Assembly: GCA_021129445.1 (NCBI GenBank)
Contig: JAJOLG010000034.1
Coordinates: 1-12,623 of the forward strand
DNA from: Candidatus Altimarinota bacterium
Lineage (GTDB): Bacteria; Patescibacteriota; Gracilibacteria; GCA-2401425; JAJOLG01
Reading direction: 5' to 3'
DNA: 12,623 nt
The translations under genes were made by a program, and so were the position numbers. Numbering within the stretch: the first letter of the stretch is position 1; every line of letters begins with the position of its first letter. Below are positions 142-12,304 of the stretch, one piece after another. Under the pieces are notes generated by a model. The model did not search any database. It was not told the DNA's origin and saw only the letters and a list, made by a program, of their open reading frames with translations.

Positions 142-204
142 ATTGCACACATTTGCAAATCGCACTGGCTGACCCACAAACCGGAATTTACAAATGAGTG
201 CAAT
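142..204. repeat. Imperfect hairpin element, left flank copy
   Basis: The arms are 142-160 and 186-204. ATTGCACACATTTGCAAAT pairs with the second arm at 17 of 19 positions, leaving a 25-nt loop (161-185). The core CACATTTGCAAATCGCAC (148-165) recurs with one mismatch in 18 at 12322-12339, where it is part of an equivalent hairpin with the same loop length. Here the element would lie in the 5' leader of the operon mRNA. It could act as RNA structure, as a folded single-strand recombination site, or as a remnant of a small non-autonomous element. The sequence does not decide between these. Confidence 0.7.
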
Positions 205-263
205 TTACCCGACACACACGAAAGAATGAAACATCAATTAAGAATTTAATAAATAAACTTACA

Positions 264-1577
264 ATGAAATATTTTTGGAGACTTTGTACAATTGTAATTC
301 TATTTGGGTTAACAATCCTATCAGGTTGCACTGGTTGTAATAACCGTAGCGAAAGATTGAATGAAACAAAAACTAAAGAAAAATCAAATACTGAGGAACA
401 GAATACATTGAATAATGATTCTGACAATTCAGAAAGAAAAATTAGTAAAGCAGTCTTTTTTATAGAAAACTCTGAAAGTATGTTTGGCTATGTAAGTGGC
501 TTTACAGAATACGTTGATGTTATTTCTGAATTAGCAGAAAAGCCAAAGTTTGCAGAAGAAAAAACACAGCGTGAGTTCTATTTTATTAATGGTGGAGATA
601 TTCTTAAAGTAACACCAATAGGAAACAATCCTGCTGTTTTGAAAAAAAAATTAAACACAACTGGATTTAATTGTGGTGATAAAACAAAAAGCAACCTAAA
701 TTCAATGTTTCAAAAAGCACTTGAGAAAGCAAGGAAAGATACAATATCTATATTAATATCTGATGCAATATATGACTTGGGAAAACCAAATGCACCAATG
801 AATGCATTAGCAACAGAGGGTAGAGAGACTCGAAGCAGATTTATTGAAAGACTTGGTGATGGAGATTTACAAACAATAATGATTAAATTGTATTCTCATT
901 TTGATGGAAACTATTTCCCTGTTAATGGTGGAAGAATACCAATAAAACAGACACGACCCTATTATATTTGGATTTTTGGTGAAACGGAATTGTTAAATAG
1001 ATATTTCCCCGAAGAATATATCAAGTCATTAAAAGGGTATGCAGATATGGCAAGATTTATAAAGTTTGATGAATTGAATATTCCTTATCAGGCAGTATCT
1101 CAAAATATAATAGGACGTTTTAAGTTTGATAAGATAAGTAAGAACAAACTAAAGGATGTAAAATCTGACAGAAATGGTCAAGGTTTTCAATTTTCGTTTG
1201 CAACAGATTTTTCATCTCTACCTTATTCTGATTCATATTTTCAAACAACTAATAATTATTCATGTAGTGATGACAATTATGCAGTAACATCTGTTACAAA
1301 AATTAAGAAAAAGGCTTATGAAATAACATCATTTATTCCCACTCATATGATAACGGCTTCTACTCAAAACAATCCTTATTGCGAGTTAAACATATCGCTT
1401 AAAAATGTTGTGCCAATATGGATTGTCAATACAAATTCCGATGATGAATCAAACATTAAAAGTGACACAACACAAACCTTTGGCTTTAAATTTCTAACGA
1501 ATGCAATAAGCGAGGCCTATTCATATAAGAACAAAGAAAAGAATATTACAAATTTCACATTTGAAATAATTAAATAA
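264..1577 (+). CDS. vWA-like lipoprotein
   Basis: This is a probable outer- or inner-membrane lipoprotein of 437 residues with a von Willebrand A-like domain, a fold used for metal-dependent protein contacts. The signal peptide and lipobox end in LSGC, with the lipidated Cys at 22, followed by a polar Asn/Glu/Lys-rich linker to about residue 60. The vWA domain opens at KAVFFIENSESMFGY: ExSxS at 68-72 stands where the MIDAS motif DxSxS is expected. A second MIDAS-type Asp (167) follows the strand ISILISDAIYD. An in-frame GTG at 198 would add 22 residues, but it lies inside the flank hairpin and puts a hydrophilic stretch ahead of the signal peptide, so ATG 264 was chosen. It is the first gene of the operon, 7 nt before the next. 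The vWA assignment rests on motif order and is moderately secure; the exact function is unknown. Confidence 0.75.
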   Translation: MKYFWRLCTIVILFGLTILSGCTGCNNRSERLNETKTKEKSNTEEQNTLNNDSDNSERKISKAVFFIENSESMFGYVSGFTEYVDVISELAEKPKFAEEKTQREFYFINGGDILKVTPIGNNPAVLKKKLNTTGFNCGDKTKSNLNSMFQKALEKARKDTISILISDAIYDLGKPNAPMNALATEGRETRSRFIERLGDGDLQTIMIKLYSHFDGNYFPVNGGRIPIKQTRPYYIWIFGETELLNRYFPEEYIKSLKGYADMARFIKFDELNIPYQAVSQNIIGRFKFDKISKNKLKDVKSDRNGQGFQFSFATDFSSLPYSDSYFQTTNNYSCSDDNYAVTSVTKIKKKAYEITSFIPTHMITASTQNNPYCELNISLKNVVPIWIVNTNSDDESNIKSDTTQTFGFKFLTNAISEAYSYKNKEKNITNFTFEIIK

Positions 1578-1584
1578 ACATATT

Positions 1585-2031
1585 ATGAAAGATATTTTTG
1601 CAACAATTTATGAAACGTGGTTTCAATTGTATGATTCTCAATTCTCATTGATTTTCGACACACTTTATAATGCTGGTTACATAATGTTTGGACTTTCGTT
1701 CATTCTAATACCCCTAATTTTATGGCTTCTTTTCTATTATGTGTGGAATTATCCTTATGGAAAACTTTGGCACTGGTTAGTATGGCTAATAATTACATTT
1801 TTAATTGTGGCAGGTTCAACTTTTGGTATTGCAAACAATGAAATATTTGTTTCAGTTAATCAAGCCCTTATTGATGCATTAGCCGACCCTGAATCGGGTT
1901 ATGAACAGTTTGCAAAAACACTACCACTAAAATATGCCTTGTTTAATGGTATATTAACAATTGGTGTAGGCATTATTTACAGCTTGGTATTAAAGCAGTT
2001 TAGTAAAATTCAAATTCATTTACCTTTTTAA
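1585..2031 (+). CDS. Small three-helix membrane protein, unknown function
   Basis: The protein has 148 residues and I do not recognise its family. Three hydrophobic segments are visible at about 31-53, 63-83 and 115-136. An amphipathic N-terminus is rich in aromatic residues (EFW/Y pattern), and a polar loop at 84-112 contains DPESGYEQF. There is no signal peptide with a cleavage site and no known catalytic motif. It sits between the vWA lipoprotein and the tubulin-like gene, 7 and 10 nt away, so it is probably the inner-membrane partner of one of them. Its start codon and that of the next gene share the same AT-rich context ACATATTATG (1578-1587 and 2035-2044), with no Shine-Dalgarno sequence. 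Confidence 0.8.
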   Translation: MKDIFATIYETWFQLYDSQFSLIFDTLYNAGYIMFGLSFILIPLILWLLFYYVWNYPYGKLWHWLVWLIITFLIVAGSTFGIANNEIFVSVNQALIDALADPESGYEQFAKTLPLKYALFNGILTIGVGIIYSLVLKQFSKIQIHLPF

Positions 2032-2041
2032 TTGACATATT

Positions 2042-3532
2042 ATGGCAAAGAAATTATATATTTTCGGAATTGGTGGTACTGGTTCAAGAGTTTTAAAAGC
2101 ATTCACAATGTTGCTTGCATCTGGTTGTAAACTTGAAAACGACTTTGATACTGTAATACCAATAATTATTGACCCCGACACAAGTAACGGTGACTTAAAT
2201 CGCACCAAAGATATTCTGCGACTGTATCAGGAAATAAGAAATCAAATCCAGCAACCAGATGATTTTTATAAACAAGAAATAAAAACAATAAATGAATTAG
2301 CGAATAATTCGGCAGTAATAAATCCTGAATATTTCCAGTTTAAACTGGAAGGAGTTGAACAAAGCACTTTTGGGCAATATATTGGTTTTGATAGTCAAAG
2401 CCATGATTTTAAGAAATCAAAAGATGACAAAAATTTCATTCGTTTGCTTTATTCAGACAGCAACTTAAAATCTGATTTAAATGTTGGATTTAAAGGAAAT
2501 CCTAATATGGGTTCTATTGTATTAAATCAATTTACAAATTCGGAGAATTTCAGAAAATTTGGTCAAACTTTTAATGATGGAGATGCAGTTTTTATAATCA
2601 ATTCTATATTTGGAGGAACGGGAGCAGCAGGTTTTCCACTTTTATTAAAAAACCTTAGAGGAAATGACCAATTACCACACCACGAAAAAATTAAGGATTC
2701 ACAAATCGGGGGAATAACATATTTGCCATATTTTGCTCTAAATAAGCAAGACGAGGTTAATTCAGAATCATTTGAAGAAAAGGCAAAAATTGCACTTGAT
2801 TATTACAACAGAACAATTATAGACAAGAATCAAATCAATACTTTATATTTTATTGGCAATAAAGGAAATACTAAACACTTTGAATATTCTGTTGGAGGAA
2901 AAGAACAAAAGAATGATGCACATTTCCTTGAAATGGCAGGAGCTTTAGCAATTCTTGATTTTTGCAAGAATATTAATAAAATTTCTAATACTACACAAAT
3001 CAAAGAGTTTGGAATTGAAAACACAACAGAAAATATCAGTTTTAATGACTTAAATATAGAAAATAACAAAGAGGTTTCAGCCCCATTAACAAAATTCAAA
3101 CTCTACACAGAGTATCTAAAAAAAGGATTGCCAAAGTCATTGAATGTTTCAAGGTGGACGAAAAGCAATATTAAGTTAGTGAAAGGAAGTAAAAACTCAA
3201 TACTTGATAAAAACTATTTTAACAGTTCTGAATACAAAATACAAATTGAAGCATTTAATAAACATTTTGAGGATTGGCTTAAAGAAATGGGAGAAAATAA
3301 ACCAGCATTTAATCCTTATAATATTGTTGATTGGGACAATGCACTAAATCTATTAAAAGGCAATGAACCAAAAGGCAATAAAAGTTTTAAGGTGCTGGAT
3401 AAAGAAAACTGTAAGCTAATAGATGACAGTAGTATTAAATCATCTATAGAAAAAAAGCATACGACATTGATAAAGTTATTTAGTAAATCAACCGAAAATG
3501 TATTAAATAAACGTAACCTTTTAATAAGATAA
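2042..3532 (+). CDS. Tubulin/FtsZ-like GTPase family protein
   Basis: This is a cytoplasmic protein of 496 residues with two glycine-rich signatures of the tubulin superfamily. Near the N-terminus, GIGGTGSRV (9-17) follows the first beta strand, as in the first nucleotide loop of FtsZ. The tubulin signature loop SIFGGTGAAG (188-197) resembles GGGTGTG. A strand IIIDPDTSNGD at 41-51 would be the ribose/Asp region. No clear NxDxxD catalytic T7 loop was found, so polymer-stimulated GTP hydrolysis is uncertain. The protein is longer than FtsZ (about 380 residues) and has a lysine-rich C-terminal part. This is the pattern of the Tubulin_2-type families (PF13809) found beside vWA and OmpA-family genes. 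A Rossmann-type NAD enzyme was considered, but the second loop argues against it. It ends 3 nt before the ATPase gene, so the two are probably translated together. Confidence 0.75.
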   Translation: MAKKLYIFGIGGTGSRVLKAFTMLLASGCKLENDFDTVIPIIIDPDTSNGDLNRTKDILRLYQEIRNQIQQPDDFYKQEIKTINELANNSAVINPEYFQFKLEGVEQSTFGQYIGFDSQSHDFKKSKDDKNFIRLLYSDSNLKSDLNVGFKGNPNMGSIVLNQFTNSENFRKFGQTFNDGDAVFIINSIFGGTGAAGFPLLLKNLRGNDQLPHHEKIKDSQIGGITYLPYFALNKQDEVNSESFEEKAKIALDYYNRTIIDKNQINTLYFIGNKGNTKHFEYSVGGKEQKNDAHFLEMAGALAILDFCKNINKISNTTQIKEFGIENTTENISFNDLNIENNKEVSAPLTKFKLYTEYLKKGLPKSLNVSRWTKSNIKLVKGSKNSILDKNYFNSSEYKIQIEAFNKHFEDWLKEMGENKPAFNPYNIVDWDNALNLLKGNEPKGNKSFKVLDKENCKLIDDSSIKSSIEKKHTTLIKLFSKSTENVLNKRNLLIR

Positions 3533-3535
3533 ATC

Positions 3536-6500
3536 ATGGCAAAAGTATATAGACTTCACGAAGGACAAGATGGTACTGGTTGGTTTTCAAGTAAGCCCAT
3601 CGGCACAGAAGAATTAAAAACAATTAAAACGGAAGGCAAAGATGTTGCGACATCAATCCCAAGTCCATTTGCAAGAGTAGATTTGGTAAAGTCAGCTTTT
3701 AAATGGGTTGCTGAGAATGGTATTGATGGAACAACAGCCCATCATAAATTAGTTTCTGACGCATTAGATGTAGCGCAACTATTCTATGCTTCACAAAAGT
3801 TTGCGAGTAAAATCCAGATTGTAGCTTGGAACCCAAAAGAAAGGTTAAAGGATTTGGTTGAGAATGGAAATACACGACATTCAAAATTTGCTGCTACTCT
3901 TCGATTATTTTGGAATCAAGATAGTGTGCCAAATAATGAAAGAGGGAATAAAGTTCTGTACAACTTTGAATCTGTAAACAGATTGTATTTTCTGCTGAAC
4001 AAGGAATCTAATACTATTATTGGAGGAACATCCCCTGCAACCCTATTTTTTGCTTCGCCTGATGTTAAAAAAGCAACAGCAAACCTAAATATTAGAATAG
4101 GTCAGGACAAGTTATTCGATGATGAATATGCATCTTTAGCAAAGAGAGAAACTTCATTTGTTGAATATATTTACACACTTGCAAAACAACCAAAATTTGC
4201 TGACCATTTTCCAGAGGTATTCTCTTATTTGGAAGAAATCAGAGAAAATATCCTTAGTGCAGAACTTCGACAAAAAGTTTCAAATTTTGATGCAGAAGAA
4301 ATTAATGCTTTTACACCTTGTCCTGTACTTGATAATGAAAATGACCCCTGCGAAATACTTGGAATTCCATTGGGCATTCAAACAGTTAATGGTAATGAAA
4401 TTGAAGACGAAAGTGATTTTGTTGTAAAAAGTGATTATCAAATAACAGGTGTAAAACCGCTGATATTGCCATATCATAAATTTTCTAAAAAGTGGACTTA
4501 TACAACTAAAGGAATAATATGGGATGAGAATACAAAGATTCCAGTAAAAAATACATTTAGTTCAAAAGATTCAAAACTACCAATCCAACATGATAGTTAT
4601 TATTGGTTAACTATTGGCAACTTTTTTGAGGATAAAATTGTTGAACTTCCTTATCCAATAGATGATATAAAATTTAAAACTTGCGGGTCAAAAAACCATT
4701 TATTACCACTTACCCCAACATTCTTTAAATATTTTAGTGCAGAAAAGGTTACTGAATATTTAAAAATTGAAGAAAAATCAGGCGGATTAATTCAGGTTGA
4801 ATTAAACATTCCGGTAAAAGGTGGAAAAATAACATTTAAAAAGAATTATTCCACAGCAGATAGAAATATTGAGAAGTTTGAAATTCACTTAGCTGTATTT
4901 CCATTCCTTAAAGCAGATAATTCAAGCATTACATATACATTAGGTCTTTTGGATGACAGACTTGAAAAGAATGATAACCTTTTACTTAGTTGTTATAACA
5001 AAGGAAAAGAATTGGAATTGAAAAGTCCTATTACAAGAAACCCCGGAGAAGGAGGAGAACTCAAAAGTATATATTATAAAAGCAGTGAGCAATTCGACTT
5101 ATTAAAACTTGGCAATCAATCTGCAAAAGGATTTATTGTTCCAATTCTCAAGCAATGTTCTGGTAATAATCAAATAAATTTTGCGATTGATTTTGGCACA
5201 ACAAATACTCATATCGAATATAAATATGGTGATAACGATTCCACTTCATTTGACAATACTACTTCTACACCGCTATGGCAATCATTAATCAAAAGAAATG
5301 AAAAAGGAATAGACCCTGAATATTTTGAAAATGAAATTACTTTTGAACAGGAGATGTTGCCTTATTCATTTTCTAAAGGCAATGAACAGCTTCAATTTCC
5401 ATTAAGGACTGCACTGGTTCATAATCGACTAATAAACTTTAATGAGAATATTGATATTATTAGGCAAGTAAACAACTATTTATTACTTGAAAACAGAAAT
5501 GTTCCAAATTATTTAGAATTGAATACACAAATTAAATGGAGCAACTATGCAGATACTGTAGATGAAAAGAAAGTTGAAAGTTTTATTGAATTTCTCGCAA
5601 CTTTAGTGTTTTACAAAACACTTCTTTTGGGTGGCAATACAAATAATACAACAATTACATGGTTTTATCCTGTCAGTATGGACGAAGGCGAATTAGGTGT
5701 GTTTTTTAAACTTTGGAAACGAGTCTATAAAAAAGTATTTAATCAAGAAGCAACAGACGATAAATTAAAAGGAATACCTGAAAGTATTGCCCCTTATATG
5801 TTTTACAAATCATCTGTTGAAGGACTTAGTCTTTCTATTGATATTGGTGGTGGTTCATCTGATATTGCTGTTTTTGATGAAGATGAAGACAAAGCAAAGC
5901 TAATATCATCATTCAAATTTGCCGGGAACGCAATTTTTGGAGATGGATACCCATCGAACGAATATCAAAACAATTCGGATAGGAATGGATTTGTAAGAAC
6001 GTTTAAGGAAGCATCCTTTAATGCCATTAAAGGAGATAAACAAAAAGAAGGAATATTAAATAACATTTTAAATGTTAGAAAAAACTCATCAGACTTTAGT
6101 AGTTACTTATTTGCCTTAGAGAAAGATAGCTCAATCAACTTTAGTTATTCAAGGTTATTGGAAAAAGACAAGAGATTAAAACTTACTCATTTTGTATTTT
6201 ATGGTGCAATTGCATATTATTCGGCTATCCTGCTAAAAAAATCAGGAATTGGTATTCCAAAATACATTTTGCTAAGTGGTACTGCATCAAAATCTGCTTC
6301 AATACTCGATTCAACAGATGATTTTAGCAACCTTTCTGCAATGTTTAAATTTATATTTGAAAAGGTTAATGGTAAAAAATCAGATAATGGGATTTCTATC
6401 AGACTATCGCAAATCCCCAAAGAGGTTACATGTAAAGGTGCTTTAAAAGCTAATATCTCTGAAAGCATAAAAAAAGCCCCGGTAAAATTTTGGATTGGCG

Positions 6501-6871
6501 GAATGCAAGATGATAAATGGGGTGCAGCTTTCGATAAAGAATTAAATATTCAAGAAACACCTAAATATGGAGATGTTAATGATTCTTCAAAATCTGAAAT
6601 TGAAAAAGCAATAAAGGATTTTTATTCAATTCTTGATGAGTATATTAATACTATCAGACTTGAATCTAAATTTATTATTGAACCAAGTGCATATCAAGTG
6701 TTTAAGGATACAAGGGAAAAAGGTATAAAAGATTATCTAATTAGAGGAATAAAGGCATATTACAAGAAAAACGATGTGTACATTGAAGAGTCGCTTTTCT
6801 TTTATCCGTTAATCGGGATATTAAATAAACTTTCGTATGCACTTTCTGAAAAACAGAATAATGATGAATAA
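3536..6871 (+). CDS. Large protein with C-terminal Hsp70/actin-like ATPase domain
   Basis: This is a cytoplasmic protein of 1111 residues with no signal peptide or membrane segment. Residues 1 to about 540 form a region I cannot assign; it contains SIPSPFARVDLVKSAF (41-56) and IGGTSPATLFFASPD (161-175). From about 545 the actin/Hsp70/hexokinase fold begins: phosphate-1 motif FAIDFGTTNTH (D552), phosphate-2 motif IDIGGGSSDIAVF (D769) and adenosine motif LLSGTASKSA (G915). The motifs come in the right order, and the wide gap between the first two is filled by a large insert. Near the end, IGGMQDDKWGAAF follows. The protein therefore probably binds ATP and changes shape or assembles. It is distantly reminiscent of large SrfB-type proteins, but I am not sure of this. 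It sits directly after the tubulin-like gene and overlaps the next gene by 11 nt. Confidence 0.8.
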   Translation: MAKVYRLHEGQDGTGWFSSKPIGTEELKTIKTEGKDVATSIPSPFARVDLVKSAFKWVAENGIDGTTAHHKLVSDALDVAQLFYASQKFASKIQIVAWNPKERLKDLVENGNTRHSKFAATLRLFWNQDSVPNNERGNKVLYNFESVNRLYFLLNKESNTIIGGTSPATLFFASPDVKKATANLNIRIGQDKLFDDEYASLAKRETSFVEYIYTLAKQPKFADHFPEVFSYLEEIRENILSAELRQKVSNFDAEEINAFTPCPVLDNENDPCEILGIPLGIQTVNGNEIEDESDFVVKSDYQITGVKPLILPYHKFSKKWTYTTKGIIWDENTKIPVKNTFSSKDSKLPIQHDSYYWLTIGNFFEDKIVELPYPIDDIKFKTCGSKNHLLPLTPTFFKYFSAEKVTEYLKIEEKSGGLIQVELNIPVKGGKITFKKNYSTADRNIEKFEIHLAVFPFLKADNSSITYTLGLLDDRLEKNDNLLLSCYNKGKELELKSPITRNPGEGGELKSIYYKSSEQFDLLKLGNQSAKGFIVPILKQCSGNNQINFAIDFGTTNTHIEYKYGDNDSTSFDNTTSTPLWQSLIKRNEKGIDPEYFENEITFEQEMLPYSFSKGNEQLQFPLRTALVHNRLINFNENIDIIRQVNNYLLLENRNVPNYLELNTQIKWSNYADTVDEKKVESFIEFLATLVFYKTLLLGGNTNNTTITWFYPVSMDEGELGVFFKLWKRVYKKVFNQEATDDKLKGIPESIAPYMFYKSSVEGLSLSIDIGGGSSDIAVFDEDEDKAKLISSFKFAGNAIFGDGYPSNEYQNNSDRNGFVRTFKEASFNAIKGDKQKEGILNNILNVRKNSSDFSSYLFALEKDSSINFSYSRLLEKDKRLKLTHFVFYGAIAYYSAILLKKSGIGIPKYILLSGTASKSASILDSTDDFSNLSAMFKFIFEKVNGKKSDNGISIRLSQIPKEVTCKGALKANISESIKKAPVKFWIGGMQDDKWGAAFDKELNIQETPKYGDVNDSSKSEIEKAIKDFYSILDEYINTIRLESKFIIEPSAYQVFKDTREKGIKDYLIRGIKAYYKKNDVYIEESLFFYPLIGILNKLSYALSEKQNNDE

Positions 6872-8168
6872 AAACGGTTTTATAGTCTTAGTTGTACTAC
6901 TTCTTGGTTTTGTAAATACACTTTCTGCACAGCCCCAAATAAATGATTCAACAGAAGCTTATAATTATTGGGCACATCGTGGAATTATTGAAATGGTTTA
7001 TGCTTATATGAATGATTATATTGAAACTGTTGGAGAAGATAAAGCAAAAAGTGAAATTGTCGGTAGAGATAAATATGAGGAGAATTATATTTCAGAAATA
7101 AATAAAAAAGAACTTGTAAGTTTTGACATAATATCAAGTTTTTTAAAAAGTAATAGTTGGGGCGGAGCTGAGAAAAATCTTTTTCAACCTTTAGTAAAAA
7201 AATATAAGAATAAGGCAGAACTTGATTTAAACTTTTTTTTAGCTGAGAAGCCTGGCAGTAATGACTTAATTACAGTTATACCTGGTCGAAACAATAAAAA
7301 TGTTAATTGGAATAAAAAGCAGCAGGAAATTATTGAAAATTACAGGAGTGAACTAAAGGCCCTTTCCAAAAAACCAACTGCCAAAGAAAAGGTTGAACCT
7401 GAAATACAAGAGCCTGAAACAAACAATCACTCAAATTGGATGCAATGGATTATATATCTATCAGTTTTTATTTTAGGAATCTTTATTGGCGGTTGGTTGG
7501 TTTTTATTGTTTCAAAAAACAGGATTTATTCAATCCTTGCCAACGAGAAAGATGAATACCTACGTGATGTTAGGTCAAGTAATAAAAGTTTCATATTTAA
7601 GTATGTGGGTTTATTCTATATCTTAAAAAATCGTAAAGATGAATATAAAACAAAGTCCGAAGATACTCAGAGTAATAATTCTAAATCAAATTCTCATTTA
7701 AATGAAGTTGAAAAACTTAAACGAGAAAAATCAGAATTAAACGAGAAAATATCTCGAATGGAGCAAACTGCCCAGAAAGCTGATGAAAAGCCCGAAACTC
7801 AAAACACCCAAGAATGGGAAATCAAACAACCAAAAACAGTAACTCGAAAATTATTTTTCAGTATGCCTGAAAGTGATGGTCGTTTTATAGTTGACAATGG
7901 TGAATCATCAAATGATGGGCGAAAATATTTCAGAATAGAATATAATGAAGGCTCTGAAACAGGTGAACTCTTTTATATCTCTGGAGACAGAGACAAAAGA
8001 GCAATTAACAGATTGGAATCATATTTAAAACCAGCGTGTGATATTGAGAATATTGAAAATGCGGATTCAGCTAATAACATAGAATTTATTAAATCGGGAA
8101 AAGTTGTTTTAATAAACGATAGTTGGATAATTGATTCTGATAATAAAGCTAAAATAAAACTACTTTGA
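6861..8168 (+). CDS. Single-pass membrane protein, outside domain plus cytoplasmic coiled coil and tail domain
   Basis: The protein has 435 residues and an unrecognised family. A cleavable signal peptide (1-23, ending LSA-Q) precedes a charged domain (24-192) that would lie in the periplasm. One membrane helix spans about 195-217 (IIYLSVFILGIFIGGWLVFIV). A Lys/Ser-rich linker, a short coiled coil at about 280-305 and a compact C-terminal domain (about 328-435, beginning RKLFFSMPESDGRF) follow in the cytoplasm. The topology suggests a link between outside events and the cytoplasmic NTPases. Start: an upstream ATG at 6837 would put polar residues before the signal peptide. The paired ATGs at 6861 and 6864, overlapping the previous stop codon, fit better. 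The reading frame overlaps the ATPase gene by 11 nt, which suggests coupled translation. Confidence 0.8.
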   Translation: MMNKNGFIVLVVLLLGFVNTLSAQPQINDSTEAYNYWAHRGIIEMVYAYMNDYIETVGEDKAKSEIVGRDKYEENYISEINKKELVSFDIISSFLKSNSWGGAEKNLFQPLVKKYKNKAELDLNFFLAEKPGSNDLITVIPGRNNKNVNWNKKQQEIIENYRSELKALSKKPTAKEKVEPEIQEPETNNHSNWMQWIIYLSVFILGIFIGGWLVFIVSKNRIYSILANEKDEYLRDVRSSNKSFIFKYVGLFYILKNRKDEYKTKSEDTQSNNSKSNSHLNEVEKLKREKSELNEKISRMEQTAQKADEKPETQNTQEWEIKQPKTVTRKLFFSMPESDGRFIVDNGESSNDGRKYFRIEYNEGSETGELFYISGDRDKRAINRLESYLKPACDIENIENADSANNIEFIKSGKVVLINDSWIIDSDNKAKIKLL

Positions 8169-8170
8169 AA

Positions 8171-9877
8171 ATGATATTGTTACAAATAGCTTCAAATACA
8201 CAGGTTGAAAACCTGAATTTATTTGGCACAGACTTTTGGTTTTACGTTGAAATAGTAATAATTACTGTAATAGTAATAATGCAACTTAAAACTTTTGATA
8301 ATGTCAGAAGAAGAATTATTGAATTACGTCAAATTTTCGATTATAGCTTCACCATTAAATATGGTTTTATTGAAAAGAAAAAACTTGGAAAAATAGAAGG
8401 CGATTCAGAAGAGATTCAGTACGAAGATGGAACTGAGGAAGAATCACTCTCTGAAATAGTTGGCGATGATATTGCAAAACTGACACTTATTGAAACTGAA
8501 GGTGAGAACGCAATTATCACAAAAATAAAGAACGCAATTAATACCTATTTAATTAACAACTATGGTGCAGCGGTTAATTTTAGTATCATAAAGGATATTA
8601 TTGATAGAGAAGTAGAAGTAAAAGATGAGGAAATAACTCAGACAATTACAATCCCACTCTATTTGGGTCTTGCAGCCACAATGGTTGGAATTATCTTAGG
8701 TCTATTTTCTATGCCCAATTTAGATGGAGATGGCTTTTCACAAGGTGTAAATGCACTTATCAATGGTGTTAAAATAGCTATGATAGCAAGTCTGTCAGGT
8801 TTGTTTTTTACAACATTACTATCATCTACGTTCTATAAAAATGCAAAAAGCAAAGTATTAAAAGAGAAGAACGAACAACTTTCATATTTGCAGGCAAAGT
8901 TATTACCCGAGCTTGTTAAAGCAGAAGATACAGGCGTATCAGGTTTGAAAGCTAGCTTAGACAGGTTTGCAAGGGTAGCTACAACTATTTCTGATAATGT
9001 TCTTATTGCGGCAAACCAGACTGGCGAGAATCTTGTTTTACAACAGGAAGTTATGGATAAAGTCGAGAATATGAAAGTTCTAAAAGTATCTAAATGGAAC
9101 TTAGAATTGTTTGAGAAACTTGATATGAATATGGATGCCTTTAATAAGTTTTCTACTTATTTATCCAATATGGAGAAGATTTCTTCGAACCTTCTCGAAT
9201 TTGCGGCACGCACCTCTAGTATTGACCAAGTAATTAAAGGAATTGATACTACATTGAGCGATTCAAAACAATTAACCAAATTCCTAACTGCTCATTTTGA
9301 TAAGATTGAAGATGCAGGTAATGCTGCATTAAAATCTGTTGGTATTGCTGAATCACACTTTGAAGATGCAATTGAAAGTTTAAAAACAAGAACAGATGAA
9401 ATGATAAATCAACTGTATAAGAGTGCTGGTAATCATGAAACTAAATTAGAAGACATTTATAAAGAAATCAAAGAGAATTTAAATAATATAACCTCTGAAT
9501 ATATTAGTTCGTTTTCTGAAGCTTATTCTAATTCCATTCCAAAGTTTGAACAATTAGATAATTTAGGTTTGTTACCCGAGATAAAAGAAGAATTCTTATT
9601 AAAAGCTGCTGATTTTCAAAATGAATCAGGCTTGCGGTCTGAGACACTAATTAATATAGCAAATGAGTTAGATGCATCTTTAAAATCTGTACAAAACAAA
9701 TTAAATAGTCAAGCAATAATAAGCAAACTCGAATCTATTGATGATAAATTAAAAAGAAGTACAAACAAGAATGCTAACCACAATAATTCACAATCTACGG
9801 CAATTAGAAAATCAGTCAACACGGATTTGAAAGATAATTCTTTAAGTATTGGTAAAGTGATAAAAAAATTGTTTTAA
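8171..9877 (+). CDS. MotA/TolQ/ExbB-type channel protein with long helical tail (ZorA-like)
   Basis: The protein has 568 residues. Membrane helix 1 is at 22-39. A charged cytoplasmic segment of about 115 residues follows, then helix 2 (158-182), whose PLYLGLAATMVGIILGL resembles the TolQ/ExbB consensus LLGLLGTVxGI, and helix 3 (about 200-220). A polar Thr in helix 2 (170) and the Thr pair in helix 3 (214-215) correspond to the pore-lining threonines of this family. Residues 221-568 form a mostly helical, low-aromatic tail of about 350 residues, far longer than in TolQ or MotA, as in ZorA of Zorya. With the MotB-like protein it should form a proton-driven rotary unit in the inner membrane. A TTG at 8165 inside the previous gene is possible, but ATG 8171, two nt after that gene's stop, is preferred. 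Confidence 0.85.
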   Translation: MILLQIASNTQVENLNLFGTDFWFYVEIVIITVIVIMQLKTFDNVRRRIIELRQIFDYSFTIKYGFIEKKKLGKIEGDSEEIQYEDGTEEESLSEIVGDDIAKLTLIETEGENAIITKIKNAINTYLINNYGAAVNFSIIKDIIDREVEVKDEEITQTITIPLYLGLAATMVGIILGLFSMPNLDGDGFSQGVNALINGVKIAMIASLSGLFFTTLLSSTFYKNAKSKVLKEKNEQLSYLQAKLLPELVKAEDTGVSGLKASLDRFARVATTISDNVLIAANQTGENLVLQQEVMDKVENMKVLKVSKWNLELFEKLDMNMDAFNKFSTYLSNMEKISSNLLEFAARTSSIDQVIKGIDTTLSDSKQLTKFLTAHFDKIEDAGNAALKSVGIAESHFEDAIESLKTRTDEMINQLYKSAGNHETKLEDIYKEIKENLNNITSEYISSFSEAYSNSIPKFEQLDNLGLLPEIKEEFLLKAADFQNESGLRSETLINIANELDASLKSVQNKLNSQAIISKLESIDDKLKRSTNKNANHNNSQSTAIRKSVNTDLKDNSLSIGKVIKKLF

Positions 9878-9889
9878 TAATCGCGTAAG

Positions 9890-10390
9890 ATGAGAAATGA
9901 AATATATCTTATTAATAACTATAAAAGGAGCTTAATTACACTTCTTACTATACCTATAATCTTAATTGGTTGTATTTATATTTCCTATGGTGAAATTTTT
10001 GATGGAATTATTTTACAACAGGCTAACCCTTTGAAATTTTATCAATTACACGTTCATTTAGCAGTTTTTAGTGGTAATCTTTTCCAAGTTCCATTAAAGA
10101 ATTTACCAAATATTACTGCCTCTATTGGTTATTATTCAGTAATTGCCGTTTACATTTTATTTTCTGCTTGGGTAGTGCTTTTTGCAACTTCTTCTTACTT
10201 GCAACTTTCTCAAAAAACTGGTTCAAAATTTATTATACTCGTGGAATCAGCCTTGATATTGGCAATATATATCATTTCGATTAGTCCGGATTTAAACTTA
10301 TGGCTTTCCTTGATTGGTTATATAATTATCTCAATTGTTCTTGTGATGCTACTATTGTATTGGTTGTATGAAATTAAAACTAAGCAATGA
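9890..10390 (+). CDS. Four-helix membrane protein between the two motor genes, unknown function
   Basis: The protein has 166 residues with hydrophobic helices at about 14-33, 82-104, 114-132 and 136-159. A loop at 34-80 would lie outside, and a short charged C-terminus ends in KTKQ. No family was recognised and no catalytic motif is visible. It starts 12 nt after the ZorA-like gene. Its stop overlaps the start of the ZorB-like gene in the sequence ATGA, so its translation is tied to that of the motor pair. In ordinary Zorya loci the two motor genes are adjacent; here this gene separates them, which makes it a candidate third subunit of the motor. Confidence 0.8.
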   Translation: MRNEIYLINNYKRSLITLLTIPIILIGCIYISYGEIFDGIILQQANPLKFYQLHVHLAVFSGNLFQVPLKNLPNITASIGYYSVIAVYILFSAWVVLFATSSYLQLSQKTGSKFIILVESALILAIYIISISPDLNLWLSLIGYIIISIVLVMLLLYWLYEIKTKQ

Positions 10391-11007
10391 AAAATAATAA
10401 CATATTCTGGATAAGTTACTCTGATTTAATGACAAGCCTGTTTTTTGTTATGTTGGTGCTTTTTGTTGTAACTGTTGGCTATTTGAAATCTATTGTTGAT
10501 GCAACAAATGAACAACTGGAAAAAATTCAGGAACTACAAACTGCTGTCCAAGAATTACCGGTCGAATACTTCCAATATCAACCACAATATAAAAGATTTA
10601 AATTAAACAAACAGATTCAGTTTGATAAAGGAATGTCAGAGATAAAAACAGATTATAATTCTTATTTAATTGAAGTAGGCAATTCTATTACTAAACTTAT
10701 AGATGGCCTCAATAATAATGAAGAGTACAAAAAGTTTGACATTAAATATTTAGTAGTTATTGAGGGTATGGCTTCGAAAGATAATTTTTCATTAAATTAT
10801 GAATTGAGTTACGAAAGAGCATTATCCTTATATAAATTTTGGAAAACAAACGGAATATCATTTGACCCTCAAACTTGTGAAATACAAATTTCTGGTAGTG
10901 GGATTGAAGGTATAAGAGAATATTCTGGCAATCAAGAATATAAAAATCAACAATTTTTAATTCATATAATTCCTAAAATGGGTAAAATAATTGGAGCCAA
11001 TGAGTGA
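10387..11007 (+). CDS. MotB/OmpA-type stator protein (ZorB-like)
   Basis: The protein has 206 residues: a short cytoplasmic N-terminus, one membrane helix (14-34) and an OmpA-type C-terminal domain (about 75-197) in the periplasm. Asp13 in ISYSDLMTSLFF sits at the helix entry, exactly where MotB and ZorB carry the proton-binding Asp. The OmpA motif is recognisable at 125-145 (IEGMASKDNF, then NYELSYERA). The Asp of the usual G-H-T/A-D is replaced, while the Arg (144) of the RA pair is kept, so peptidoglycan binding may be altered. A Gln/Glu-rich stalk (40-58) links helix and domain. The start ATG overlaps the previous stop by 4 nt. The assignment to the MotB/OmpA superfamily is secure; ZorB-like is the best but not the only option. 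Confidence 0.85.
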   Translation: MKNNNIFWISYSDLMTSLFFVMLVLFVVTVGYLKSIVDATNEQLEKIQELQTAVQELPVEYFQYQPQYKRFKLNKQIQFDKGMSEIKTDYNSYLIEVGNSITKLIDGLNNNEEYKKFDIKYLVVIEGMASKDNFSLNYELSYERALSLYKFWKTNGISFDPQTCEIQISGSGIEGIREYSGNQEYKNQQFLIHIIPKMGKIIGANE

Positions 11008-11812
11008 TAAAATAAAAACATACATTCTTATTAGAAATATTTTCTTAATGCTTATTTTAATAGGTTCATCTTATATCTTTTATGGCTGTTCTGGCTGTTC
11101 CCAGTCAGGTATAAGAGATAACCAACAAAAAAGGAACTATTCAAATACTGATAGTCCTACAAGAAACAAAAGGTCAGTAGATGCTTCCAAAGAAAAGGAA
11201 CCGAAAGAAAGGAATTCCATTCCTGACAATACGAATGCTATCCCCTTAAATACTCTTTATAAGAAATACAAACCTTCAGTTTTTATGATTTATACTTCTG
11301 ATGGTGTTGATGTTGATGGTTATCAAGGCACAGGATTTTTTATTTCAAAAACTGGTATTGCAGTAAGTAATTACCATGTATTTAAAGGTACTTCACAAGG
11401 TTTGGAAGTAATTGAAACTTCTGATGGTCACAAATTGAATATTGAAAAAGTTTTAAGCAAAAGCGATGAAAATGATTTCATAATATTTAAAGTTAGGTTA
11501 TCAGGTTACAACATAAATAATCCAATTCCCATTTCTTTTCAAGAACCTCAGATTGGTGAGGATGTTTTTGCTATTGGCAATCCTCGTGGATTAGAAAGCA
11601 CTTTGTCTAAAGGAATTATTTCAGGTTTTAGAGAAAAAAGGAACTATATCCAAACAACAACAGAGATAACTCATGGAAGTAGTGGGGGACCATTGTTAAA
11701 TATGAGAGGAGAAGTTGTTGGTATTACAACCGCAGGTTTAGGTGAAGCAAATCTTAATTTTGCAATAAATATTAAACAATTACCATTGCATAAATATAAT
11801 TTAGGAAACTAA
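11000..11812 (+). CDS. Lipoprotein trypsin-like serine protease (DegP/HtrA-type catalytic domain)
   Basis: The protein has 270 residues: an N-terminal hydrophobic segment (8-28) ending in FYGC with a probable lipidated Cys30, a polar linker to about 80, then a chymotrypsin-fold protease domain. The catalytic triad is visible: His126 in VSNYHVF, Asp159 in SDENDFIIFKV and Ser228 in THGSSGGPLLN. GTGFFIS (110-116) and AIGNPRGLES (191-200) are typical of HtrA enzymes. The chain ends soon after the barrel, so there is no PDZ domain, unlike DegP or DegS. It should cut proteins outside the inner membrane, anchored by lipid. A TTG at 10991 would add three residues; ATG 11000 inside the end of the previous gene is preferred. 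The lipobox is loose (Phe at -3), so a plain membrane anchor is an alternative. Confidence 0.9.
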   Translation: MSDKIKTYILIRNIFLMLILIGSSYIFYGCSGCSQSGIRDNQQKRNYSNTDSPTRNKRSVDASKEKEPKERNSIPDNTNAIPLNTLYKKYKPSVFMIYTSDGVDVDGYQGTGFFISKTGIAVSNYHVFKGTSQGLEVIETSDGHKLNIEKVLSKSDENDFIIFKVRLSGYNINNPIPISFQEPQIGEDVFAIGNPRGLESTLSKGIISGFREKRNYIQTTTEITHGSSGGPLLNMRGEVVGITTAGLGEANLNFAINIKQLPLHKYNLGN

Positions 11813-11815
11813 TTA

Positions 11816-12304
11816 ATGAAACATTGTCTTTTAAAATATTTAAGTTTTGCATTCTTACTTTTATTTTTTTCGTGTAATTCGAGAAGTGATAGAGATAGTC
11901 TTGCAGGGTATATGTCTATCAAGAAATTTGTAGATGGTGATACTTTTTGGGTGGATGATGGTTCTGAAAAAGGTTTAAAGATTCGATTAATTGGAGTCAA
12001 CACACCTGAAACTGTTCATCCTCAAAAGCCAGTTGAATATTATGGAAAGGAAGCATCTAATTATGTAAAAAAGGTATTAATGAACAAAAAGGTTCGCTTG
12101 GAATTTGATGTTAGTAAACAAGATAGGTATGGGCGAACTCTTGCATATGTTTTTTTAAATGATGGAACATTTTTAAATGCAGATTTAATTGAAAACGGTT
12201 ATGGCCAAGTTATGACTGTGCCACCGAATGTAAAGTATTCAGAAGAATTTTTAGAATTAGAAAGAAAGGCACGTGAAAATAATATTGGACTATGGAAAGA
12301 ATAG
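11816..12304 (+). CDS. Lipoprotein thermonuclease (SNase family)
   Basis: The protein has 162 residues: a signal peptide with lipobox FFSC (Cys20), then a staphylococcal-nuclease fold from about 33. Residues matching the staphylococcal enzyme are D42 (D21, in VDGDTF), R57 (R35), E65 (E43, in NTPET) and R107 (R87, in DRYGR). The calcium ligand D40 is replaced by Asn62; from memory NTPE is common in bacterial relatives and does not prove loss of activity. The enzyme should cut DNA and RNA outside the cytoplasm, anchored to a membrane. It starts 3 nt after the protease gene and is the last gene of the operon. It could be an effector that meets incoming DNA, a scavenging enzyme, or passenger cargo of the island. 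Confidence 0.9.
   Translation: MKHCLLKYLSFAFLLLFFSCNSRSDRDSLAGYMSIKKFVDGDTFWVDDGSEKGLKIRLIGVNTPETVHPQKPVEYYGKEASNYVKKVLMNKKVRLEFDVSKQDRYGRTLAYVFLNDGTFLNADLIENGYGQVMTVPPNVKYSEEFLELERKARENNIGLWKE

Follow-up and report, generated by a model that had tools for sequence, protein, structure and literature searches.

We found that a tubulin-like protein (here, TubL) and an actin/Hsp70-like protein (ActL), encoded back to back, are probably obligate partners forming one cytosolic, GTP- and ATP-binding module of a membrane-anchored envelope machine. As a rule, the tubulin and actin types of protein occur in separate systems. The direct observations behind this proposal are the two folds, the nucleotide-binding motifs, the conserved adjacency of the genes, their natural fusion, and their co-occurrence with membrane and motor genes.

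The window, i.e., the whole stretch of DNA analyzed (12,623 nucleotides), is an entire 12.6-kb contig of a 0.67-Mb metagenome-assembled genome (MAG) whose class has genomes of ca. 1 Mb. Given that TubL was found in none of 98 genomes of this class and that the closest relative, a contig from a Bacteroidota MAG (L002), showed 83 to 89% DNA identity to the window over the shared operon, the contig is probably misbinned Bacteroidota DNA. It carries ten genes (198 to 12304, + strand) that almost certainly form a single operon, as judged from their common strand and their spacing of −35 to +12 nt. The genes and their main motifs are as follows:

198..1577, +, vWA-like lipoprotein (family c2), from its motifs and a lipobox, LSGC
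1585..2031, +, small membrane protein with three predicted transmembrane (TM) helices, from hydropathy (family c3/c11)
2042..3532, +, TubL, 496 aa, tubulin/FtsZ fold, divergent relative of Tubulin_2/FtsZl1 (Pfam, alignment, model)
2066..2092, +, T1 loop of TubL, GIGGTGSRV (sequence, family alignment)
2603..2632, +, T4 loop of TubL, SIFGGTGAAG, GTP phosphate binding (SIFGGTG invariant in the alignment)
2906..2932, +, QKNDAHFLE of TubL, putative start of H7 with a presumed guanine contact (alignment and model helix)
3536..6871, +, ActL, 1111 aa, a ca. 540-aa N-terminal region followed by a C-terminal actin/Hsp70-type (ASKHA) ATPase domain (motifs, profile, model)
5189..5209, +, phosphate-1 motif of ActL, DFGTTNT (family alignment)
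5840..5863, +, phosphate-2 motif of ActL, DIGGGSSD (family alignment, profile)
6275..6292, +, adenosine motif of ActL, SGTASK (family alignment)
6837..8168, +, membrane protein c4, with a signal or N-terminal TM helix, a TM helix at residues 208 to 226, a charged coiled stretch, and a C-terminal domain (hydropathy)
8165..9877, +, ZorA/MotA-like membrane protein with a long C-terminal cytosolic tail (Pfam MotA_ExbB, E=5.4e-4; PADLOC ZorA2, 1.8e-5; family alignment)
9890..10390, +, four-TM protein, present in the window and L002 only
10387..11007, +, ZorB/MotB-like protein with one TM helix and an OmpA-like periplasmic domain (PADLOC ZorB1, 6.5e-17)
10991..11812, +, trypsin-like (HtrA-type) serine protease with an N-terminal membrane/export signal (Pfam Trypsin_2, 2.3e-24; hydropathy)
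11816..12304, +, staphylococcal-nuclease-type protein, probably exported (Pfam SNase, 7.9e-29)

A sequence-only reading of the window had picked out five motifs as marks of the two main cytoskeletal NTPase folds in neighboring genes. All five are present, GIGGTGSRV and GGTGAAG in TubL (residues 9 to 17 and 191 to 197) and DFGTTNT, DIGGGSSD, and SGTASK in ActL (residues 552 to 558, 769 to 776, and 914 to 919), and a check of the open reading frames (ORFs) placed both genes on the same strand with 3 nt between them. The SIFGGTG T4 loop and the phosphate-1, phosphate-2, and adenosine motifs were conserved across 16 divergent TubL/ActL pairs, and their presence is therefore beyond chance. Within TubL, T1 (GIGGTGSR) and T4 (SIFGGTGA) were invariant or nearly so in the 16 sequences. 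The Pfam matches of the window TubL, to Tubulin (E=4.4e-5) and Tubulin_2 (PF13809; E=5.9e-5), were weak and under their cut-offs (for Tubulin_2, 22.9 bits versus a curated value of 27), and Tubulin_2 was matched by 11 of 12 family members at an E value of ≤0.1 (best, 2.2e-10). An AlphaFold2 model built from five sequences had low confidence (pLDDT, 47; pTM, 0.48); in a Foldseek comparison with the PDB, the best match had an E value of 1.2e-4 and a probability of 1.0, and the best 50 listed were all FtsZ or tubulin. Residues 1 to 327 of the model, compared with solved structures (VIA), gave a Z score of 14.2 and an rmsd of 3.8 Å over 196 aligned residues. Together, structure prediction, Pfam matches, and the conserved T1 and T4 loops bore out the tubulin GTPase fold.

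Farther along the TubL alignment, the Q, N, H, and E of a Q-x-N-x-x-H-x-x-E block were invariant, and a helix of the model (residues 288 to 310) begins at this block; alignment and model together indicate that it is probably H7. In FtsZ and tubulin, the NxDxxD motif of loop T7 completes the GTPase site between subunits. A T7-like catalytic loop had been named as a point to check, and here the search came out negative, with no conserved NxDxxD past the putative H7 in the 16 sequences, in a region where the alignment is uncertain. For this reason, an FtsZ-type polymerization cycle or treadmilling of TubL is not indicated by the sequences.

The three nucleotide-binding motifs of ActL all lie within its last ca. 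560 residues. The window protein matched no Pfam family at an E value of ≤1, and its AlphaFold model was poor (pLDDT, 39). A profile of 12 ActL sequences matched actin-family, MreB, FtsA, and DnaK chains at the motif sites (E values from 9e-4 to about 0.3), and weak Pfam matches among the 12 members included FtsA (6), MreB_Mbl (3), and SrfB (2), with FtsA, EutA, and MreB as the commonest. In the Foldseek comparison, the model was closest to glucokinase (E value, 6.7e-6), followed by Hsp70s, MreB, and ParM, and VIA gave Z scores of up to 10.4 (rmsd, 4.5; 235 aligned); the matches listed all belonged to the actin/Hsp70/sugar-kinase superfamily. Motifs, profile, and model matches thus agreed on the actin/Hsp70 (ASKHA) fold. 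ActL shares this ATPase core with SrfB (PF07520), MreB, FtsA, and Hsp70, and differs from all of them in its N-terminal region of ca. 540 residues, which gave no match in searches with the ActL protein; the window ActL had no significant match to any family. SrfB was not adopted as the family of ActL, the matches being weak (2 of 12 members; best E value, 0.056). In a divergent branch (L074, 1967 to 5467; L076, 5613 to 9518), the phosphate-2 glycines (GGST) and the adenosine motif of ActL are altered. Judged by these motifs, both proteins are perhaps weaker or inactive ATPases, so that parts of the family may do without ATP turnover.

The kinship with Hsp70 raises the question of whether ActL could be a chaperone or assembly factor for TubL and not its partner in a working complex. 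DIGGG and PESxAP (resembling EPTAAA) are Hsp70-like motifs, and DnaK and BiP were among the best structural matches of ActL. However, HSP70 was not among the Pfam families matched by ActL members, an Hsp70 substrate-binding domain is absent, the extension is N-terminal and not C-terminal, no GrpE or DnaJ match appeared among the window proteins, and the gene fusion described below suggests a lasting association. We therefore regard a chaperone role as unlikely.

A profile search detected TubL in 15 of 395 Bacteroidota genomes. ActL adjoined it directly downstream in 12 (G099, G115, G171, G190, G265, G283, G348, G383, G408, G458, G470, and G486), both formed one ORF in two (G369 and G491), and in one (G489, locus L073) the TubL frame was broken and ActL was gone. 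In that decayed locus (5925 to 11414), the ZorA/B-like and protease genes were also truncated. Strong ActL profile matches in the 395 genomes were all inside TubL loci, the remaining matches being short FtsA/DnaK-like phosphate-2 stretches. The distance between the two genes ranged from 3 to about 190 nt across loci. The conserved core comprised four genes, in the order vWA-like lipoprotein, small membrane protein, TubL, and ActL. The same core was found in Prevotella sp. oral taxon 299 (L004) and on plasmids of the cyanobacteria Gloeothece and Picosynechococcus (L005 and L006), where the pair had 18 to 22% full-length identity, as well as on three IMG/VR contigs (L080 to L082) in searches with alignments; a search of viral contigs with a single ActL protein gave no match. 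In one of these contigs (L080, 1 to 17281), a five-gene TubL/ActL operon without motor genes abuts genes for prophage tail and baseplate proteins that run in the opposite direction. Distances in the TubL, ActL, and vWA families were correlated (r, 0.91 to 0.96), consistent with co-inheritance.

Lack of conserved pairing in other genomes had been put forward as what would speak against a partnership, and the opposite was found, with 12 adjacent and 2 fused pairs among 15 and with recurrent fusion. Functionally unlike genes can share an operon, but a gene order conserved over phyla, together with recurrent fusion, makes it highly improbable that TubL and ActL are chance neighbors with no joint function. 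Long Tubulin_2 proteins (open frames of 986 to 1215 aa) were present in 8 of the 395 genomes (L095 to L102), with no ActL, vWA-family, or Zor-like neighbor by the profiles used; lacking ActL and ZorAB-like neighbors, these were rejected as the same system and treated as a separate class of loci.

The fused proteins of L071 (1686 aa) and L072 (1681 aa) were 52% identical and carried CGGTGAH and SSVGGTGSS near the N terminus and IDFGTSH and DLGGGTLD near residues 1110 to 1350. Fused ORFs were found in 7 of 146 genomes of the class of G491, encoding proteins of 1615 to 1692 aa that were 36 to 97% identical to the L071 protein. T1, T4, and phosphate-1 were kept in all of them, and the phosphate-2 pattern was unmatched in L120 only. 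Maintenance of the frame over this range of identity makes an assembly error unlikely. The fusion supports a physical coupling of TubL and ActL, and, with the invariant pairing, supports their binding to each other. Within the clade of the fused proteins, one contig (L117, 440 to 5147; G502) has TubL-like and ActL-like ORFs overlapping in different frames. It was not counted as a natural split of the fusion, since the contig is short and a frameshift is a possible reading.

A fusion fixes a 1:1 ratio, and both proteins have the main filament-forming NTPase folds, as might be expected if TubL and ActL were a two-component cytoskeleton, in which dynamic filaments or a mixed polymer would move or position envelope parts. 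We consider this rather unlikely, given the missing T7 NxDxxD of TubL, the N-terminal region of ActL that a filament would have to accommodate, and the many actin-fold proteins (Hsp70, kinases) that do not polymerize.

Upstream, the vWA-like family was kept in most loci and the c3/c11 family stood immediately 5′ of TubL in nearly all, with four predicted TM helices in the cyanobacterial relatives. The lipoprotein of the window, the true start of which is likely the ATG at 264, has ENSESM in place of the MIDAS DxSxS and the invariant D of ISD; the first MIDAS position is D in cyanobacterial members and E in most Bacteroidota. These are vWA-like motifs in a protein with no Pfam vWA match, so the domain call is motif based only. 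Downstream, family c4 followed ActL in L002, L004, L018, L020, L022, L023, and L024. ZorA/ZorB-like genes were located 3′ of the pair in the window and in L002, L019, L020, L021, L023, L081, L071, L072, L118, L120, L121, and L122. All fused loci with enough sequence carried them, and L119 has a ZorA-like gene at the contig end. In the TM helix of the ZorB-like protein, W8, D13, M15, and T16 were invariant in nine sequences, D13 (nucleotides 10423 to 10425) being the conserved aspartate. The ZorB-like profile matched 2 of 163 Bacteroidota genomes at 1e-8, both in TubL-ActL loci and both with sequences that had contributed to the profile. ZorAB-like genes were not found in L004, L005, L006, L018, L022, and L024, where other envelope genes occurred, and control of a motor therefore cannot be the universal role. 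With this proviso, synteny supported the suggested association of the pair with membrane proteins and a motor. Overall, the sequence-only reading was partly supported: it held for the two folds and for the conserved partnership, and control of the motor by the pair is a proposal.

The best match of the motor genes was to type I ZorB, and, like Zorya (types I to III), the window has a MotAB-type pair with a TM aspartate, a periplasmic OmpA-like domain, and a long ZorA tail. This motor signature, combined with a weak ZorA match, points to a distant relative. Membership in Zorya was rejected, since PADLOC detected no ZorC/ZorD, ZorE, or ZorF/ZorG effector among the 10 window proteins; unlike in Zorya, moreover, the TubL-ActL core can occur without the motor. 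In Zorya, ZorAB is a 5:2 motor in which ion flow, peptidoglycan binding, and the ZorA tail are needed for defense, and the structure paper does not mention tubulin (PMC11890865). By analogy, the ZorAB-like proteins found here may share these properties.

The likeness to Zorya suggests a role in conflict with invaders, in which the ZorAB-like motor would sense envelope damage at a threshold set by TubL and ActL, with the protease and nuclease as effectors. Given the Zorya-like parts, the patchy spread, and the mobile carriage, this role is plausible, although we stop somewhat short of calling it probable; it is compatible with the envelope machine and would supply its biological purpose. It is favored by the ZorB1-like (6.5e-17) and ZorA2-like matches, by the presence of TubL in only about 4% of Bacteroidota, on plasmids and beside prophage genes, by a nuclease of varying type within the operon or close to it, and by the existence of predicted conflict systems that contain vWA along with tubulin or Hsp70 (Kaur et al. 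2020, PMC7159879). On the other hand, PADLOC gave no match to any core protein, TubL and ActL included, the ZorC/D/E/F/G components are missing from the window, and PADLOC on the flanks of the loci gave no consistent signal (mostly ordinary genes, with possible defense neighbors at L004 and L081 only). The nuclease and protease also carry export signals, which would keep them from meeting cytosolic phage DNA.

Among known systems, the set extends the FtsZl1 (Tubulin_2, PF13809) system of Makarova and Koonin (2010, PMC2875224), and it is similar to, yet distinct from, Zorya and the DO-GTPase systems with tubulin or Hsp70. Like TubL, FtsZl1 is a divergent FtsZ-like GTPase with no recognizable T6-T7, and T6-H7 likewise could not be found in it (PMC2875224). 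Its operons, cyanobacterial ones included, contain vWA genes, to which the vWA-like gene of the TubL loci corresponds by motif, and share with these loci membrane and OmpA-type genes; a membrane role is predicted (PMC2875224). However, FtsZl1 has ca. 1000 aa, with a coiled coil and a C-terminal helical domain (TubL, 496 aa), and TubL-ActL loci have no P-loop GTPase and always have an actin/Hsp70-type partner, one that is not named in the main text on FtsZl1 (PMC2875224); ActL may be included, unnamed, among the associated families B1 to B9 of that study. In the DO-GTPase/GAP1-N2 conflict systems (Kaur et al. 2020, PMC7159879), variable envelope-associated genes are likewise joined by HSP70 or by tubulin homologues plus an extracellular vWA. 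In Firmicutes and Actinobacteria, their tubulin and HSP70 neighborhoods are non-overlapping themes, and the overview describes one class in which GTPases occur together with an HSP70 protein and tubulin homologues (PMC7159879). Unlike these themes, TubL and ActL are fixed, adjacent, and sometimes fused. No GTPase or GAP1 Pfam match was found among the 10 window proteins at an E value of ≤1, on a contig whose ends are close by. In the openly searchable literature, supplements apart, we found no description of the TubL-ActL pair or its fusion. Thus, within that literature, the fixed pair, the fusion, and the ZorAB-like link appear undescribed, while operons that link FtsZl1 to vWA and OmpA-type genes were already known.

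We propose that TubL, carrying GTP, and ActL, carrying ATP, would sit together in a single complex beneath the inner membrane, linked to the vWA lipoprotein and to membrane proteins; from the pattern of genes, we infer physical binding, nucleotide turnover, the flow of a signal, and a role in either envelope homeostasis or anti-invader defense. An envelope signal would be sensed by the vWA lipoprotein and the OmpA-like domain of the ZorB-like protein and relayed across the membrane, where TubL and ActL, assembled beneath it into an NTP-dependent switch or scaffold, would gate the motor or whatever other output is present. The vWA-like lipoprotein, small membrane protein, TubL, and ActL would be the fixed core, to which variable outputs are attached; in the lineage of the window, these would be an ion-driven ZorA/ZorB-like (MotAB-type) motor with a long cytosolic tail and, on the outer side, a protease and a nuclease. 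More tentatively, the tubulin-fold GTPase and the actin-fold ATPase, one polypeptide in some species, might gate or load the MotAB-type motor from the cytosolic side, which, if true, would bring a rotary motor and the two principal cytoskeletal NTPase folds together in a single envelope system. A conserved and sometimes fused pair with a motor-like complex would provide a testable function for short proteins of the FtsZl1-like kind, the role of which has been in question since 2010, and the pair plus motor would offer a handle on the control of nonflagellar MotAB-type motors. The fused proteins are ready single-chain targets for structure determination.

At or just past the operon end, unrelated nuclease families were observed, SNase in the window (11816 to 12304) and Endonuclease_NS (7e-48) in L081 (16998 to 17924), both with apparent export signals.
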